Shown here in pieces: positions 1,118 through 8,128 of a stretch of DNA of 38,770 bases. Numbering within the stretch: the stretch's first letter is position 1; every line of letters starts with the position of its first letter. Origin of the DNA: a virus. The notes under the pieces were generated by a model that saw nothing but the letters and a program-made list of their open reading frames with translations, did no database searches and was not told where the DNA came from. Location: positions 1 through 38,770 of IMG/VR virus record IMGVR_UViG_3300032242_003384; one strand, written 5' to 3'. Made by a program: the position numbers and the translations under genes.

Positions 1118-2332
1118 TCAAGCCACGGCCTCAAGGGAAGATAATCCGTAGATTTGATTTCTTGCGGCGCTGTCAGCGGATGAAAGGCTCTTCAAATAAC
1201 TGGCGTAGTAGGTCTCTGTCGTGGTGACGCTACGATGGCCGAGAAACTTCTGTGCCTCATATATACCATATCTAGTAGCCACGATGGATCCGGCCCATTT
1301 GCGCAACTCGTAGGAAATCTTTTCACGATCCCTGATGAATCTCTCGGCGAAACGGTTGATCTGCCGTAAGCAAGTAATCGACCGCTCGCTTTTGTTCTTC
1401 CCAGGGCAAACGAACTCGGTCAATGCCTCATCCTTAAAAGCCTTGAGCTTCTCCCATAGGGAATCAGAGACTGGCAACTCGCGGCCAACGGCCTCAGCAT
1501 AGTCAGCGCGCACCCTAAAGAAGCGCTTGGTCGTTGCAATACCCTTGTCATCAAAGACCGGCCGCTCGATGAACTGATCCCAAAGTGCCTTGGCGACCTC
1601 TCCGTTGCGTAACCCGAGCTGGCTCATCATGGCATAAACAATCCAGACCGAGTCCCTATTCTCCCATAGGCGCTGAGCGGCGGCCTCCATGTCGATGACC
1701 GTCTGCCGATCAAAGGGGACGAATCCCTCGTTAACCTTCTTCTTGAACCGTTTCTTAACACGGAATCCGGTCAGGTCGGGAAGCATGAGCTCGCGGTAGA
1801 TATCGGAGAAGTTCTCCTGGAGGACGCATCGTGCCTGGGTGATGGAGCTCTGGATGCTGTGGTCGGGACGATAGGGCAAGCCGGTCTCAGGATTGATCTT
1901 GCGGCAGGCTGCCATGTATTTTCGGATCAGCTCCTCCGTAAGTAAGGAACTGCTCATTGTGTCCTGGTACTCCTTGCCGAGTGCGGTGGATACCAATTCC
2001 TCAAGGCTGCCTGCATATTGTCGTATGCTGCGCGGACTTAGAAGCGTCTCAGCGCTGCTACGTCTAAAGATCTCTAGGATCTCTCCAAGCGTAGCAGTCC
2101 TCTTCGGTGCTACGACCTTGGCCTCGGGTTTCCAGTCGTTCTTCTCTAAGGAATCAAGCTCCTTCTTGGCCCGCTCCAGAGCTGCTGGCTTAGAGGTAGT
2201 CTTGAGACTCTTCCAAAGGGCCTTTCCGTTGCGGGTAAGCCGGAGATAGAACTTGCCCCCTCTTAGCCATAGTGTGTAGCTTTCGCCCCTGTGATTGAAG
2301 GAAATATCAGTGCGTATTGCGGTGGTGCTCAT
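1118..2332 (-). CDS. int: Tyrosine recombinase (phage integrase), 404 aa
   Basis: This is the site-specific recombinase for lysogeny. An N-terminal arm-binding region (about 10-70) and a SAM-like core-binding region (about 80-190) precede the catalytic domain. Arg I is R242 in LGLRNGE, Arg II is R344, LGHR gives H366, and the nucleophile is Y375 or Y376 in TETYY. The first histidine of the usual HxxR box is replaced by Tyr (Y341-E-L-R344), a tolerated variant. The gene reads leftward and starts 183 bp from a tRNA-Thr half sequence, the expected attP arrangement. It converges with the HTH gene at 885-1115. No strong Shine-Dalgarno precedes the ATG. Confidence 0.95.
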   Translation of the reverse strand: MSTTAIRTDISFNHRGESYTLWLRGGKFYLRLTRNGKALWKSLKTTSKPAALERAKKELDSLEKNDWKPEAKVVAPKRTATLGEILEIFRRSSAETLLSPRSIRQYAGSLEELVSTALGKEYQDTMSSSLLTEELIRKYMAACRKINPETGLPYRPDHSIQSSITQARCVLQENFSDIYRELMLPDLTGFRVKKRFKKKVNEGFVPFDRQTVIDMEAAAQRLWENRDSVWIVYAMMSQLGLRNGEVAKALWDQFIERPVFDDKGIATTKRFFRVRADYAEAVGRELPVSDSLWEKLKAFKDEALTEFVCPGKNKSERSITCLRQINRFAERFIRDREKISYELRKWAGSIVATRYGIYEAQKFLGHRSVTTTETYYASYLKSLSSADSAARNQIYGLSSLEAVA

Positions 2333-2391: not shown

Positions 2392-2413
2392 TGCTACGTC
2401 GAGTGCTACGTGG
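2392..2413 (+). repeat. Left pair of arm-type repeats (TGCTACGT, 12-bp spacing)
   Basis: Two direct copies of TGCTACGT start at 2392 and 2404. A matching pair with the same 12-bp spacing lies on the other side of the tRNA core, at 2582 and 2594. Direct repeats flanking the core are the usual form of integrase arm-type binding sites. Confidence 0.6.
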
Positions 2414-2514: not shown

Positions 2515-2564
2515 GCCGCTTTAGCTCAGCTGGTAGAGCATCTCATTCGTAATCCGGAGATTAC
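2515..2564 (+). other. attP: attP core: 5' half of tRNA-Thr (anticodon CGT)
   Basis: Bases 2515-2553 match the 5' half of a tRNA-Thr: acceptor strand GCCGCTT, D arm GCTC-AGCTGGTA-GAGC, anticodon 5' stem TCTCA and loop TTCGTAA with anticodon CGT. The match ends in the 3' anticodon stem, where TGAGA would be needed but TCCGG is found, so this is not a functional tRNA. An inverted repeat GTAATC-CGGA-GATTAC (2549-2564) spans the end of the homology and may be the core-type integrase sites. The integrase gene is adjacent, and arm-type repeats lie on both sides. Confidence 0.88.
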
Positions 2565-3526
2565 CTCTTTTGAGTTTCAGTTGCTACGCGGTTTGCTACG
2601 TGGGTGTGAATCCATTGGCGGAGATATGGGATCATTTCTTTAATTTCGATCTGCTTGGGATCTTTGACTCCGAAATCTTCGCACAGGTGCAGCCGGAATT
2701 GTGCTTTTTGGTCGGCGCTTAATGGCGCTATGAGTTCAGCGAATTGCTGGTGGTATTTCTTCTCGCTAATGGGATCTGTGCCAATCCGTATTTTGTAAAT
2801 TTCTAATGCATTAAAACCATCCAAATAGGCAAACATGGTGCGTTCTCTCATCAATTTGTTGGAGGGAACTTTGCAAGCAATCAGGTATTGCTGCCAAGGA
2901 CCAGGATTTACGGGAGGATGATCGGTTGGGGTAACTCCATGCGTGTATGGGTTGAGTAATGGTTCACCCAGAGAGGTGTGTTTGAGACCGGCTGGGGCTG
3001 GCGCTGGTTTTCCGGTGTAAGGGTCGACCCACATTTCTGGAGTTGGGTTTGCATGGGGTGCTGATTGTTGTTGAGGATAGTATTCCAAGCCAGCAATTGG
3101 CATAGGCATCGGTATGGGATAATTTGGAGCCGGTTCTGGTGCGTTTGGTGTAACGATAGGGACAATATCGCCGTGAGATCCAACTACGGCGCTGACGGTA
3201 GTTCCTGGAGCCGCAGTGACGCCTCCCCAAACTGATCCACCGTTTCCAATCCGGCTGTAGTTGTAGCCGCCATTGCCATTTGGCAAAATGGTCGTGGTCA
3301 TAGGAAAACTGGAAGAACTATAGGTAGTAATGCTTTGCATTTGGGCACCGCAGCTGCTGGTAATTGCCAACAGAGCGATGAGCGCCTTGAAAATTGTCAG
3401 ATCTTTGGTGGCCCGTAAGAGCGTTTTAAGCTCGCGCAGGATCATCACGACCATGCCCGGTGGATGTTTGGCCAGCAGCTCTTTGATCACGCGCTGGGCT
3501 TCGAGTTTGGCGTCCTGGTGGCTCAT
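2561..3526 (-). CDS. Proline-rich exported protein with one membrane segment, candidate lysogenic-conversion gene (321 aa)
   Basis: I do not recognise the family. A short charged N-terminus (1-42) precedes a hydrophobic segment (about 43-56, FKALIALLAITSSC). The cysteine at its end resembles a lipobox but has Thr at -3, so lipidation is uncertain. A Ser/Gly/Pro-rich low-complexity region with repeated proline-methionine segments follows to about residue 190. The last 120 residues look globular. It begins at an ATGA overlap with the LPD29 gene behind a good AAGGAG site, so the two genes are translated together. Its stop codon lies inside the attP inverted repeat, and its 3' end contains the right arm-type repeats. 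That position suggests cargo expressed in the lysogen, perhaps at the envelope. Confidence 0.72.
   Translation of the reverse strand: MSHQDAKLEAQRVIKELLAKHPPGMVVMILRELKTLLRATKDLTIFKALIALLAITSSCGAQMQSITTYSSSSFPMTTTILPNGNGGYNYSRIGNGGSVWGGVTAAPGTTVSAVVGSHGDIVPIVTPNAPEPAPNYPIPMPMPIAGLEYYPQQQSAPHANPTPEMWVDPYTGKPAPAPAGLKHTSLGEPLLNPYTHGVTPTDHPPVNPGPWQQYLIACKVPSNKLMRERTMFAYLDGFNALEIYKIRIGTDPISEKKYHQQFAELIAPLSADQKAQFRLHLCEDFGVKDPKQIEIKEMIPYLRQWIHTHVANRVATETQKR
2582..2603 (+). repeat. Right pair of arm-type repeats (TGCTACGC/TGCTACGT)
   Basis: Copies at 2582 and 2594 keep the same 12-bp spacing as the pair at 2392/2404, on the opposite side of the core. They are inside the 3' end of the 2561-3526 gene, so the same bases serve as coding sequence. 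Confidence 0.6.
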
Positions 3527-4227
3527 TTTGATTTCTCCTTATCGACAAAGATATAATTGGAGCCAAAATGCACAAGCACCGCATCCCCGCTCAATGGGGA
3601 TCCAATGGTTTCAAGAATAACGCCACCGGATCCATGAGTACCGTGATTGATTGCTAGGCTGGCGGATCCGTCGCGATAAAGCCAACAATAGCGTGAAGTC
3701 TTGAGATCGATTGTGCCGTCAAAATCGGCGCCCTCGTACTGATACAGAATTTCTTCTACTGCTTTAATTTCCGCGGGGCCGGTGTATCGCACGTTGATGG
3801 ATGATCCTCGGGAGCACCGGACGCTAAATTTGTTGCCTGGAAATTTCTTGGCCAGCACTGACCGTATCAGCACTGCGGTTTCCGGTCCGCTGAGATAAGC
3901 GCCGCTTTCTCCTGCCTTGGTCCTGGCCTTTTCCCACACCTCGAGAGGGGTATTAGCGGTCTTGCGGATGACGCGTTGATCGGCGCGGTATTTTGCCCAC
4001 AGCTCAAGTTTAGAAAACCATTCCTTGGCCTGGGCATCAAATCCCTCGGCGGTTTTAAACGTGTAGTGCCAATCAGAACGACCGGCCGTACCTTTGTACG
4101 CGATGCCTTGGGATTTGTCCGGGCTGTGATAGATAACGCCTAGTGGCGTTTCGATTGTTTCAGTGCAATTGCTGGGCCTCCAACGTGCTGCGAGGCGGTC
4201 GGTTTTGGTGATGAGACGTGTGTTCAT
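3523..4227 (-). CDS. LPD29-domain protein (large polyvalent protein-associated domain 29-like)
   Basis: A 234-residue protein. The central part (about residues 105-175) reads GPETAVLIRSVLAKKFPGNK, then FSVRCSRGSSINVRYTG and YEGADFDGTIDL. This pattern of FPG-KFSVR-GSSI-V and FEGADFDG is how I know LPD29, a domain of phage and plasmid mobile elements with no settled function. The N-terminal third and the C-terminal hydrophobic strands are not assigned. I prefer the ATG at 4227; an upstream TTG at 4272 would add 15 residues without a ribosome-binding site. It is the first gene of a leftward two-gene operon whose promoter carries two repressor operators. Confidence 0.78.
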   Translation of the reverse strand: MNTRLITKTDRLAARWRPSNCTETIETPLGVIYHSPDKSQGIAYKGTAGRSDWHYTFKTAEGFDAQAKEWFSKLELWAKYRADQRVIRKTANTPLEVWEKARTKAGESGAYLSGPETAVLIRSVLAKKFPGNKFSVRCSRGSSINVRYTGPAEIKAVEEILYQYEGADFDGTIDLKTSRYCWLYRDGSASLAINHGTHGSGGVILETIGSPLSGDAVLVHFGSNYIFVDKEKSK

Positions 4228-4270: not shown

Positions 4271-4299
4271 AATATCTGACAAATCTTTTAAAGAATCAA
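4271..4299 (-). promoter_or_regulatory. Leftward promoter of the LPD29 operon
   Basis: Read on the minus strand, TTGATT (4294-4299) and GATATT (4271-4276) are separated by exactly 17 bp. The operator copy at 4283-4295 covers the spacer. The same arrangement is seen at the RHH repressor promoter, which supports repression of this operon by the switch. Confidence 0.6.
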
Positions 4300-4317
4300 G
4301 AAAAATCTTTTAAAGAT
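4283..4317. promoter_or_regulatory. Operators O1 and O2 (ATCTTTTAAAGAW), 22 bp apart
   Basis: O1 at 4283-4295 matches 12 of 13 bases of the palindrome ATCTTTTAAAGAT; O2 at 4305-4317 matches all 13. They are spaced 22 bp start to start, about two helical turns, the same spacing as O4/O5 in the early control region. They probably bind an RHH regulator. Confidence 0.75.
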
Positions 4318-4402
4318 TTTCTTAATCTGGCGCTTCAAGGGATTTGAAAGTGTATTACCTTGACGTCTATCAAGTCGTTGCAGTATGTATAACAGGGTGC
4401 GG

Positions 4403-4663
4403 TTATGCCGTTGCCTCTAATTGAGGTCCGGTGCCATGTGATCCTCCCGTCGTTAAAGGGATTACGGTTTCCCGGATCACAGGTGTCCGTTGAAATTTCT
4501 TATCGCCTTTTGAGCTTTCGATAATTGCTTCCCTCATCCAAGAAGCCCTGGTGATCCCATCGCGGGCCGCTAGCTCATCAATTCGACGAAGCAACGGTAG
4601 TTCGACAGAACAAGCGATAAGCTTCATTCCGGAACCGACTGCGTTGGTCTTTCCTTTTGCCAT
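4403..4663 (-). CDS. Ribbon-helix-helix (Arc/CopG-type) DNA-binding protein, candidate lysogeny repressor (86 aa)
   Basis: The RHH fold is visible. A beta strand KLIACSVEL is followed by helix A (PLLRRIDELAARDG) and helix B (TRASWMREAIIESS), with a polar C-terminal tail. RHH dimers insert the strand pair into the major groove and often bind tandem palindromes. The start is placed at the ATG at 4663 because it opens MAKGKTNAVG just before the strand; the longer frame has no support. It is divergent from a second RHH gene at 4792, and the 128 bp between them hold four operator-like sites. This position is where a cI-type repressor would sit, and no HTH repressor is found elsewhere. Confidence 0.82.
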   Translation of the reverse strand: MAKGKTNAVGSGMKLIACSVELPLLRRIDELAARDGITRASWMREAIIESSKGDKKFQRTPVIRETVIPLTTGGSHGTGPQLEATA

Positions 4664-4669
4664 TAGTAT

Positions 4670-4699
4670 AATGTAATACAATCTTTGAAAGATTGTCAA
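4670..4699 (-). promoter_or_regulatory. Leftward promoter of the RHH repressor, with operator in the spacer
   Basis: On the minus strand TTGACA (4694-4699) and TACATT (4670-4675) are 18 bp apart. The perfect operator O3 lies wholly in the spacer, which implies autoregulation. Transcription would start about at the ATG (4663), so the repressor mRNA may be leaderless, as is known for lambda cI from PRM. Confidence 0.65.
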
Positions 4700-4770
4700 A
4701 GATTTTGTCACCATGAATAAAATCTTTTAAAGATTTTCCTTGTATCTTTAAAAGAATTCCTTTAAAAGAT
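4681..4770. promoter_or_regulatory. Operator cluster O3-O6 between the divergent RHH genes
   Basis: O3 is ATCTTTGAAAGAT (4681-4693), followed by an extra half site AAAGAT (4698-4703). O4 is ATCTTTTAAAGAT (4722-4734), O5 is ATCTTTAAAAGAA (4744-4756) and O6 is TCCTTTAAAAGAT (4758-4770). O4 to O5 is 22 bp start to start. A weak rightward promoter, TTGTAT (4740-4745), 17 bp, TAAAAG (4763-4768), has O5 in its spacer and O6 over its -10. These sites would control the early operon. Confidence 0.75.
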
Positions 4771-4791: not shown

Positions 4792-4968
4792 ATGACCAAA
4801 ACAACCACCATAGCAGCCTCAGGAGTCCCATTGGAACTTGTTCAATGGATCGACGAGAAAGCCAAAGAACAAAGCACAAATCGTTCAACAATCATTCGCC
4901 AAATCCTAATGAAACGCGTTGCTGAGCTTACAAATATTTCTGAACAGAAAGAAAGGGAGGCTGCATGA
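4792..4968 (+). CDS. Second ribbon-helix-helix protein, Cro/Ant-like position (58 aa)
   Basis: This 58-residue protein has a short strand (TTTIAASGV) followed by PLELVQWIDEKAKEQSTN and RSTIIRQILMKRV, the strand-helix-helix pattern of CopG/Arc proteins. It opens the rightward early operon, facing the RHH repressor across the operator cluster. That gives the switch two opposed RHH proteins, as Arc and Mnt do in P22 immI. The stop overlaps the next start (ATGA). No clear Shine-Dalgarno precedes it. Confidence 0.8.
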   Translation: MTKTTTIAASGVPLELVQWIDEKAKEQSTNRSTIIRQILMKRVAELTNISEQKEREAA

Positions 4969-6641: not shown

Positions 6642-7193
6642 ATGACAATAGAACAAAAAAACTCGTCAAAAAAAGAAGGGGGGACACTTGGTGCTATTTC
6701 CACCTTATTTGGGAAAAAAACAACGCCCACGGATCCCACAACCGCACCTGAATCTGTTTTAGAAAAGCATCAGGAGGAGATTTTAGAAAAAAAGAGCGCC
6801 GCCATGGTAGGCCTCGGCATCACATATTCCGAGGATGCGGCAGCAGAGCGTCTAGGGATTTCAGCGGATGATGTACGGTGGATGCGCAAGGAGCTGCTTA
6901 AGGCTGGGGAGGATTTCACCAGAGAGGGTGGATTCGTTCGGATCGCCGACCGTGGGCTAGGAAAGATTGAGGCCGAGCTTGCGCTAGGGACCACCTTGAT
7001 TTGCACAGGAACAAATTTGAGCAATCCTAATCTAGTCCTGGCGCGATTCCCTGGACAAATGCATACCATGCGCGTCCGCGTGGCTGACAGCTCCTCCTGG
7101 TGCAAAGGAATGCTCCTTCGGGGATGCATATCCACCGAAAACCACACGATATGGATCTGTGAAGTGCGTCCACGTTTTAAGGGGAGGATCTAA
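6642..7193 (+). CDS. Hypothetical protein with HTH-like segment (183 aa)
   Basis: Not recognised. Residues 1-55 are polar and probably disordered. Then a segment SEDAAAERLGISADDVRWMR resembles the start of a MerR/HTH domain. The C-terminal half is beta-rich (RVRVADSSSWCKGMLLRGC) and may be an OB-like or nucleic-acid-binding fold. The leader before the ATG is A/C-rich (6621-6641) with no Shine-Dalgarno. It ends in a TAATG overlap with the replication gene, suggesting a role beside replication. Confidence 0.65.
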   Translation: MTIEQKNSSKKEGGTLGAISTLFGKKTTPTDPTTAPESVLEKHQEEILEKKSAAMVGLGITYSEDAAAERLGISADDVRWMRKELLKAGEDFTREGGFVRIADRGLGKIEAELALGTTLICTGTNLSNPNLVLARFPGQMHTMRVRVADSSSWCKGMLLRGCISTENHTIWICEVRPRFKGRI

Positions 7194-8128
7194 TGCATTT
7201 CTACCGATTTTACATTAACGACTACATGGTTTCTACCCGGCACCTTAGCAACGATGAGGATCTTTGCTACCGCCGACTCCTCGATCTCTACTACACCGAG
7301 GAAGAGCCATTAGCAGATGACAAGCTGATGCTTTCACGAAAGATCCAAATGAAAGCAGATGTTGTTGAGGTGATCTTGAATGAGAAGTTTGAGAAGACAC
7401 CTGAGGGATGGATTAACGGCCGAGCGCTCGCAGAAATCACCGCATATGCACAACTTTGCGAGAAAAAATCCACCGCAGGCAAATCTGGTGGACGACCAAA
7501 ATCGAAGCAAAAGAAAGCGGGTGCTAATCAAAAGCTAACCACCAGCAAAGCTAATGGTTTGATATCAGTAATCAGTAATCAGCTATCAGATCCCCCTGTA
7601 GTCCCCACGGGGGACACATCCATCGCCCTCATCGATGACAATCTTGCCCTGCACCGGGCAAAGATGCTGTTTCGGATGAAGCCATCGACAGCCCTTGATT
7701 CGTCCCAAGAGCGTGCATGGAAAAAAAATAAAGGGGCCGTCGAATCCACCTCTGAGGGAGATTGGTTACTGCTTGAATGGTACTTTGCCCAGGGAGGAGA
7801 GGTTGCAGAGTACCGCCGCCGTGACCTTGCAACCCTGCTCAACAATTGGAACGGAGAGATCCAGAGAGCGACCGAAATTGCAAAAAAGAAAGGGTCGTCC
7901 TTCGGGAAGAAAGAAAAGTTCACCATTGTTGAGTCTTACCCTGCCAACTGGCGAGAGCTCCTGGTCGACCAGTTCCCTGAGAGCTATCCGGACGGCCTTG
8001 CCAGTGCAAATTTCCCGAGTTCATTCGCCCTGCTCCCTCAGTCCGTCCAGGCCGAGATTCGCGAATGCGCAACCTTGGCCGCCGAGATCAGTGACGACAT
8101 CCGGCGCAATGAAAAGGAGGCCGCATGA
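7193..8128 (+). CDS. DUF1376 (YdaU-like) replication initiation protein
   Basis: The N-terminus (about 1-90) is a clear DUF1376 domain: HFYRFYINDYMVSTRHLSND, then a YRRLLDLYY segment, an EEPLADD turn and GWINGRALAEI. This family occurs in phage replication modules beside helicase or helicase-loader genes and is thought to act at origins. A Lys/Ser/Asn-rich linker (about 95-150) follows, encoded by repeat-rich DNA at 7523-7615 that could be the origin. The C-terminal half is unassigned. It overlaps the DnaB gene by 4 nt. Confidence 0.85.
   Translation: MHFYRFYINDYMVSTRHLSNDEDLCYRRLLDLYYTEEEPLADDKLMLSRKIQMKADVVEVILNEKFEKTPEGWINGRALAEITAYAQLCEKKSTAGKSGGRPKSKQKKAGANQKLTTSKANGLISVISNQLSDPPVVPTGDTSIALIDDNLALHRAKMLFRMKPSTALDSSQERAWKKNKGAVESTSEGDWLLLEWYFAQGGEVAEYRRRDLATLLNNWNGEIQRATEIAKKKGSSFGKKEKFTIVESYPANWRELLVDQFPESYPDGLASANFPSSFALLPQSVQAEIRECATLAAEISDDIRRNEKEAA
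7523..7615 (+). other. Candidate replication origin inside the DUF1376 gene
   Basis: Three GCTAA boxes (7523, 7534, 7550) are followed by four contiguous 7-bp repeats of ATCAGNN type (7564-7591). Then comes a C-rich stretch and a perfect hairpin GTCCCC-ACG-GGGGAC (7601-7615). The cluster lies in the linker region of the initiator gene, as the lambda origin lies in O. A 7-bp repeat is not the usual iteron spacing, so this may instead be a simple repeat. Confidence 0.4.

Follow-up and report, generated by a model that had tools for sequence, protein, structure and literature searches.

Between the presumed repressor and the attachment site of a phage genome, and on the same strand as the repressor, lie two genes that encode an LPD29-domain protein and a putatively exported proline-rich protein (PRP), and the question that this locus raises is whether the two genes work together. 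The first-pass annotation had treated them as one operon linked to the repressor and had placed them as a pair among lysogenic-conversion or superinfection-exclusion cargo. The location of both genes is confirmed by their coordinates (Table 1).

The stretch of DNA analysed here (38,770 nucleotides; hereafter the window) repeats its first 123 bases exactly at its end and therefore represents a complete circular genome of about 38.6 kb. Pfam and PHROG searches show the phage to be temperate: besides a tyrosine integrase and a pair of divergently oriented RHH regulators, they identified a major head protein (PHROG 1328, E 1.5e-37), a head-scaffold-like protein and a DnaB-like helicase. Its attP core lies 7 bp from the PRP stop codon. 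A pattern scan of named genomes for the tRNA 5' half in this core returned 15 exact matches, 12 of them in records of Spartobacteria, Chthoniobacterales, Opitutae or Verrucomicrobiota, and ARAGORN placed a tRNA-Thr(CGT) at the attB site in all four such loci that were checked. Because the tRNA 5' half matches in such genomes, the host is most likely a freshwater Spartobacterium, an assignment that draws on attB; a profile of the integrase gave no match in named bacterial genomes. Attachment sites usually contain the 3' half of a tRNA gene (PMC10865867), whereas this phage carries the 5' half instead. Upon integration the restored tRNA gene would thus need a promoter from the phage side, and the host tRNA promoter would face the antisense strand of the PRP gene. 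The same 5' half is found in the attP of L003-L005, L010, L012, L013, L017 and L139, and the integrase is 73-83% identical to those of L003-L005. A calcineurin-like phosphoesterase gene (115-888) adjoins int and is out of step with its surroundings, being 84-97% identical across phages of which the integrases are down to 35% identical.

Table 1. Features of the locus and its surroundings. Coordinates refer to the window unless a relative is named.
Feature	Position	Strand	Basis or remark
Tyrosine integrase	1118..2332	-	PHROG 1, E 2e-20
Integrase arm-type repeats TGCTACGT, int side	2392..2413	+	Repeat analysis
attP core	2515..2553	+	Positions 1-39 (5' half) of tRNA-Thr(CGT)
PRP, predicted exported proline-rich protein, 321 aa	2561..3526	-	ORF; relatives in 12 phages
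Integrase arm-type repeats within PRP 3' coding end	2582..2603	+	Encode VANRVAT
Proline-rich linker of PRP	2879..3142	-	25% Pro, residues 129-216
Predicted signal peptide / single membrane segment of PRP, LTIFKALIALLAITSSCGA, cleavage-like CGA-Q	3344..3400	-	Residues 43-61, sole hydrophobic segment
LPD29-domain protein, 234 aa	3523..4227	-	Pfam PF18847, E 4e-14
Conserved leader of about 35 nt, GGAAGAGCCGACCGACCAAACGGGCAAATCAAAAC, directly before cassette start codon	4228..4262	-	7 copies in 5 phages
Leader copies in relatives	L010 7928-7962, 8540-8574; L014 8391-8425; L019 1126-1160; L139 1350, 2428		
Putative promoter of the pair, TTGATT-17-GATATT	4271..4299 (reads 4299-4271)	-	By analogy with L010, L019
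Operator overlapping -35 and spacer of pair promoter	4283..4295	.	Palindrome scan
Operator abutting upstream side of pair -35	4305..4317	.	Palindrome scan
RHH (CopG-like) protein, presumed prophage repressor, 86 aa	4403..4663	-	RHH_1, E 8.5e-4, just below curated cut-off
Operator of divergent switch	4681..4693	.	Palindrome scan
Operator of divergent switch	4722..4734	.	Palindrome scan
Operator of divergent switch	4744..4756	.	Palindrome scan
Divergent RHH protein, Cro position, first gene of rightward early operon	4792..4968	+	RHH_1, E 4.8e-4

The identification of the upstream gene as LPD29 was upheld, as its product scored 53.5 bits and so exceeded the curated cut-off of 27 (PF18847, E 4.1e-14). 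The domain covers approximately residues 108-234 and is preceded by an N-terminal region of about 105 residues without a known domain. A longer reading frame starting from TTG 4272 was rejected, as L014 keeps the DNA at this place and not the frame. Polyvalent proteins have at least two recognised domains; in the 234 residues encoded here LPD29 is the sole domain detected with Pfam and PHROG. The AF2 model of the protein reached a pLDDT above 90 across most of residues 100-170, and its comparison with the PDB gave no match with an E under 0.001. Many of the weak structural matches were Pol-beta or Rel nucleotidyltransferases, but every VIA-align Z was under 5, and Z values that low are uninformative. 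The solo LPD29 proteins of plasmids and phages also score above the cut-off and share the conserved FPGxKFSV and FDGxID motifs with the window protein, which differs from them in its N-terminal region and in its place in a repressor-side cassette, most viral LPD29 proteins being only 180-200 aa long.

The stop codon of the LPD29 gene and the start codon of the PRP gene overlap by 4 nt as ATGA, which makes the translational coupling that had been noted earlier plausible. This overlap, the common promoter and the position between repressor and attP would all suit a dedicated two-gene exclusion or defence system, with LPD29 acting inside and PRP outside, both being made in the lysogen. The distribution of the two genes argues against such a system. 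Scans with the integrase, with a conserved early gene and with PRP, together with a genome search for the leader described below, led to 12 independent phages that cover the site. All 12 carry PRP, and none carries LPD29, which among these phages is present in the window only. In 10 of the 12, no other gene separates PRP from the att/int side (in L019 PRP runs off the contig, and in L139 it is located just beyond int), and it is kept in L007 and L018 despite an integrase that is about 36% identical and an att other than the tRNA-Thr site. The region upstream of PRP is far from constant: there is nothing in L012, L013, L017 and L055, an ORF of 83-100 aa for a single-pass membrane protein in L007, L009, L016 and L018, the leader with small ORFs in L010, L014 and L019, and the leader with RadC (Pfam E 2.5e-35) in L139. 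Seen from the side of LPD29 the result is the same: among 80 viral LPD29 loci collected by profile, not one contains a PRP relative at a distance of up to about 4 kb, and the next genes differ between these loci. An alignment of eight LPD29 sequences proved too diverse as a scan query. Also on plasmids the neighbours of LPD29 are mutually unrelated (an endonuclease, TrfA, Uma2 and unknown ORFs). A scan of viral contigs with the single LPD29 protein gave no match, and a search that does recover the window copy yielded no LPD29 in 286 host-class genomes. Furthermore, in L014 and L010 the genes for the MSHQ module and PRP are coupled equally tightly to unrelated upstream ORFs, and PADLOC had no match for PRP, for LPD29 or for five alternative cassette ORFs. 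The first-pass annotation had itself proposed looking for the same gene pair in other prophages and had regarded a variable partner as evidence against its proposal; the partner indeed varies. We therefore consider a two-gene system very improbable. A toxin-antitoxin pair was rejected because LPD29 and PRP do not co-occur.

These findings indicate with high probability that the locus is a cargo slot between repressor and attP, consisting of a constant PRP gene and an exchangeable upstream cassette, and not a two-part system. An accessory gene is exchanged here among close relatives at one site, which is one of two properties that characterise a prophage cargo (moron) locus, the other being expression in the lysogen. 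What stands of the cargo role proposed previously is that the locus is accessory and belongs to the lysogeny module, at the end of the prophage, and that PRP is predicted to be exported; the pairing does not stand. This is important because it shows the need to check relatives before neighbouring prophage genes are interpreted as a system.

In five phages (the window, L010, L014, L019 and L139) the first cassette gene is preceded, once per phage, by a conserved leader with the consensus GGAAGAGCC[AG]ACC....CAAACGGGCAAATCA[AC]AA, after which the ATG follows. L010 has an extra copy ahead of an internal gene of its cassette, and L139 has a second, degraded one. The window cassette is LPD29, located between the leader and the start of the MSHQ module. 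The RadC/JAB cassette of L139 has in common with it the arrangement of the promoter, the spacer of which contains a palindrome, as well as the leader and a downstream MSHQ gene, but it differs in its cargo and in the location of PRP beyond int. The cargo genes behind the various leader copies are mutually unrelated, and some phages have two leaders. The possibility that the leader encodes an in-frame peptide was rejected, as L014 keeps the DNA with a broken frame. No family was matched in an Rfam search, and with the L139 phage contig as the sole exception, the leader sequence was absent from 210 genomes of the host order. It may serve as a translation or regulatory leader, as a recombination seam, or as both.

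When in the phage life cycle the cassette is expressed depends on its promoter. The start of the presumed repressor was set by the conserved start of its relatives in L019 and L010, which begin with MPKGK/MTKGK, and its matches to PHROG transcriptional repressors have E values of 0.012 and weaker. Allowing for at most one mismatch, the palindrome RTCTTTNAAAGAY occurs five times in the 38,770 bp, all copies lying within 4283-4756, three between the divergent regulators and two before LPD29; by chance 0.33 copies are expected, and none of 100 shuffles reached five. The two switch operators that the first-pass annotation had assigned to an own promoter of the pair are thus non-random. The promoter itself is weaker than it had suggested, with four of six positions matching the consensus in each hexamer, and a promoter scan does not call it. 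It is nonetheless credible because L010 and L019 repeat the same layout: TTGACA is followed by a 17-bp spacer that contains an operator, GTCTTTGAAAGAC, and the same leader lies 9 bp further on. L014, which has a switch operator of the TTGGTGCAC type, carries a related, half-site-like palindrome at its cassette promoter, and the palindrome at the L139 promoter has no second copy elsewhere in its short contig. The RHH repressor presumably recognises these operators. The operator types vary among the relatives (CTTTTACAG, CCTTTAAGG, CATTCAATG, TGTGCCACA and TTGGTGCAC), as expected of immunity groups.

An operator that overlaps the -35/-10 region of a promoter normally results in repression by the repressor. 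Since the operators in the window overlap or abut the leader promoter, this promoter is predicted to be silent in the lysogen and active upon entry or induction. It should be noted here that the two earlier statements, namely that the pair reads with the repressor and that it has its own promoter with switch operators, are in tension, as they predict opposite expression in the lysogen. The whole leader operon including PRP could accordingly be an early lytic or entry operon for counter-defence or take-over that is located on the repressor side by coincidence, with PRP acting on the envelope during infection and not in lysogeny. Apart from the repression predicted from the operators, this would agree with the fact that a terminator scan predicted no minus-strand terminator from the leader to PRP, and with a survey of polyvalent proteins that placed LPD29 and RadC among the entry-phase functions of mobile elements (PMC5512222). 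A cassette promoter that is on at entry or induction fits LPD29 and RadC because both are such entry-phase domains. However, in eight relatives without a leader, PRP or a membrane ORF follows the repressor with no operator in between, which implies expression together with the repressor. This makes PRP a better candidate for a role in lysogeny than LPD29, and we regard an entry operon that includes PRP as unlikely, though worth serious consideration. In the window phage PRP is located downstream of the same operator-bearing promoter, so that it may be made mainly outside lysogeny there.

The composition of PRP was examined with the same set of relatives. As described before, the protein has one membrane segment and a proline-rich domain; in order, it comprises the MSHQ module (residues 1-46), the signal or membrane segment, a beta-rich N module, the proline-rich linker and a helical C module. 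The MSHQ module (MSHQ...TIF, 46 residues, 3389-3526) is a separate gene of 50-63 aa in L010, L014 and L139, and the window PRP looks like a fusion of this gene with a signal-peptide protein. The separate MSHQ gene is translationally coupled in some relatives. AF2 predicts the module to be helical before the membrane segment (pLDDT 75-89). Signal-peptide-like N termini are found throughout the family, with A or G at -1 and mostly Q at +1, and by eye most of 14 family members have sites of the A-x-A or G/S-x-A type followed by Q. No lipobox was seen by eye in PRP, of which the signal ends with TSSCGA-Q, nor in its relatives. Behind the common signal the family is mosaic, combining one of two N modules (QSITTY...GVTAAPGTTVSA or QIVNGPNGGYIV) with one of at least three C modules. 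The AF2 model of the window protein was poor overall (pLDDT 63), with a beta N module, a low-confidence proline-rich linker and a helical C module, and had no PDB match with an E under 0.001. PRP thus represents a protein family that none of Pfam, PHROGs and PADLOC recognises, and nothing retrieved from these sources or from the PDB, whether family, defence model or fold, connects it to exclusion.

Tandem arm-type repeats flank the attP core on both sides, and those on the PRP side coincide with the last codons of the gene. In the family, VANRVAT or NVAxNV goes with TGCTACGT, and SDAKSDAK goes with another arm type, TTTGCGTCGGA. The end of the PRP gene is therefore physically tied to attP. This coincidence could suggest that PRP is kept for its DNA, the reading frame being incidental. 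We find this hardly credible, as the conservation of the signal peptide, the modules and the length spans about 1 kb and thereby extends far past the arm sites, and as PRP lies on the other side of int in L139.

The mosaic N and C modules would also be compatible with PRP being a host-adaptation gene that alters the surface, adhesion or biofilm-like properties of the lysogen without any role in exclusion. A search of 384 genomes of the host class with the PRP profile returned a single weak match (E 3e-5), and there was no match in the 12 genomes that carry attB. A lone PRP relative of 192 aa (L036, 9395-9973 on contig C256 of the Spartobacteria MAG G208) is located on an apparent host chromosome, and the chromosomal neighbourhood speaks for host adaptation. 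On the other hand, G208 is the only one of 213 host-order genomes with a PRP relative, and its bin additionally contains one of the phages related to the window, so that this gene may be a remnant or a domesticated copy. We therefore rate host adaptation without exclusion as rather unlikely. The neighbours of the L036 copy are, as named by eye, a dihydrolipoamide acetyltransferase-like gene and a dicarboxylate-transporter-like gene.

The explanation that we prefer combines the cargo slot with separate roles for its two genes. PRP would leave the cytoplasm via its signal segment and remain in the envelope, either anchored or free, and there modify or guard the surface of the lysogen. As to its function, superinfection exclusion as exerted by Ltp or Glo is our first choice, although we put it forward as possible rather than probable, and general lysogenic conversion comes second. 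The leader promoter would be shut by the phage's own repressor, so that LPD29 would be made mainly at induction or while the phage DNA is entering a cell without immunity, and the lysogen would contain some LPD29 owing to low-level read-through of the repressor transcript. LPD29 would then help the phage in its entry phase as a passenger and not as a partner of PRP, a role to which we give an even chance. The explanation as a whole, with slot, envelope PRP and entry-phase LPD29, we consider tentative and somewhat short of an even chance.

The closest parallel to this arrangement is ltp of the Streptococcus thermophilus phage TP-J34, a proven exclusion gene in the order int, exported exclusion protein, repressor and cro (PMC3952083). 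This gene is transcribed in the prophage, and its lipid-anchored product has been proven to block DNA injection (PMC3952083). PRP has the same position, being likewise a small, in its case putatively exported, protein encoded leftward between integrase and repressor in the lysogeny module. The two proteins differ in that Ltp has a lipid anchor, whereas PRP has a cleavable-type signal without a lipobox, a proline-rich linker and no detectable family match. Glo of Vibrio cholerae, a soluble periplasmic exclusion protein mentioned in the same paper (PMC3952083), is exported without a stable membrane anchor, as may be true of PRP, their sequences having been compared via family libraries only.

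The locus is hence a variant of a known prophage cargo locus, in which the cassettes headed by the leader and the putatively exported protein with its mosaic modules are worth following. These two features, the arm sites in the 3' end of the PRP gene and the attP with a tRNA 5' half were all missed in the first-pass annotation. Speculatively, and on balance improbably, the slot may be one in which the cargo travels with its head of about 35 nt, this being both a leader behind an operator-controlled promoter and an exchange seam, and feeds into a mosaic exclusion protein that is specific to the phage family and the gene end of which doubles as integrase arm sites. For temperate phages whose uncultured hosts are freshwater Verrucomicrobiota, the locus provides a cargo slot that is defined and comparable. 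It also represents a natural exchange experiment, in that the same setting holds LPD29, RadC, small membrane proteins or no gene at all, which gives hints at the function of poorly understood genes. Lastly, in 24 of the 80 viral LPD29 loci (L058-L137) we observed a nearby divergent DnaD-like primosomal gene that is related to the window gene at 7193-8128, at a distance of a few hundred bases from LPD29 where this was checked.
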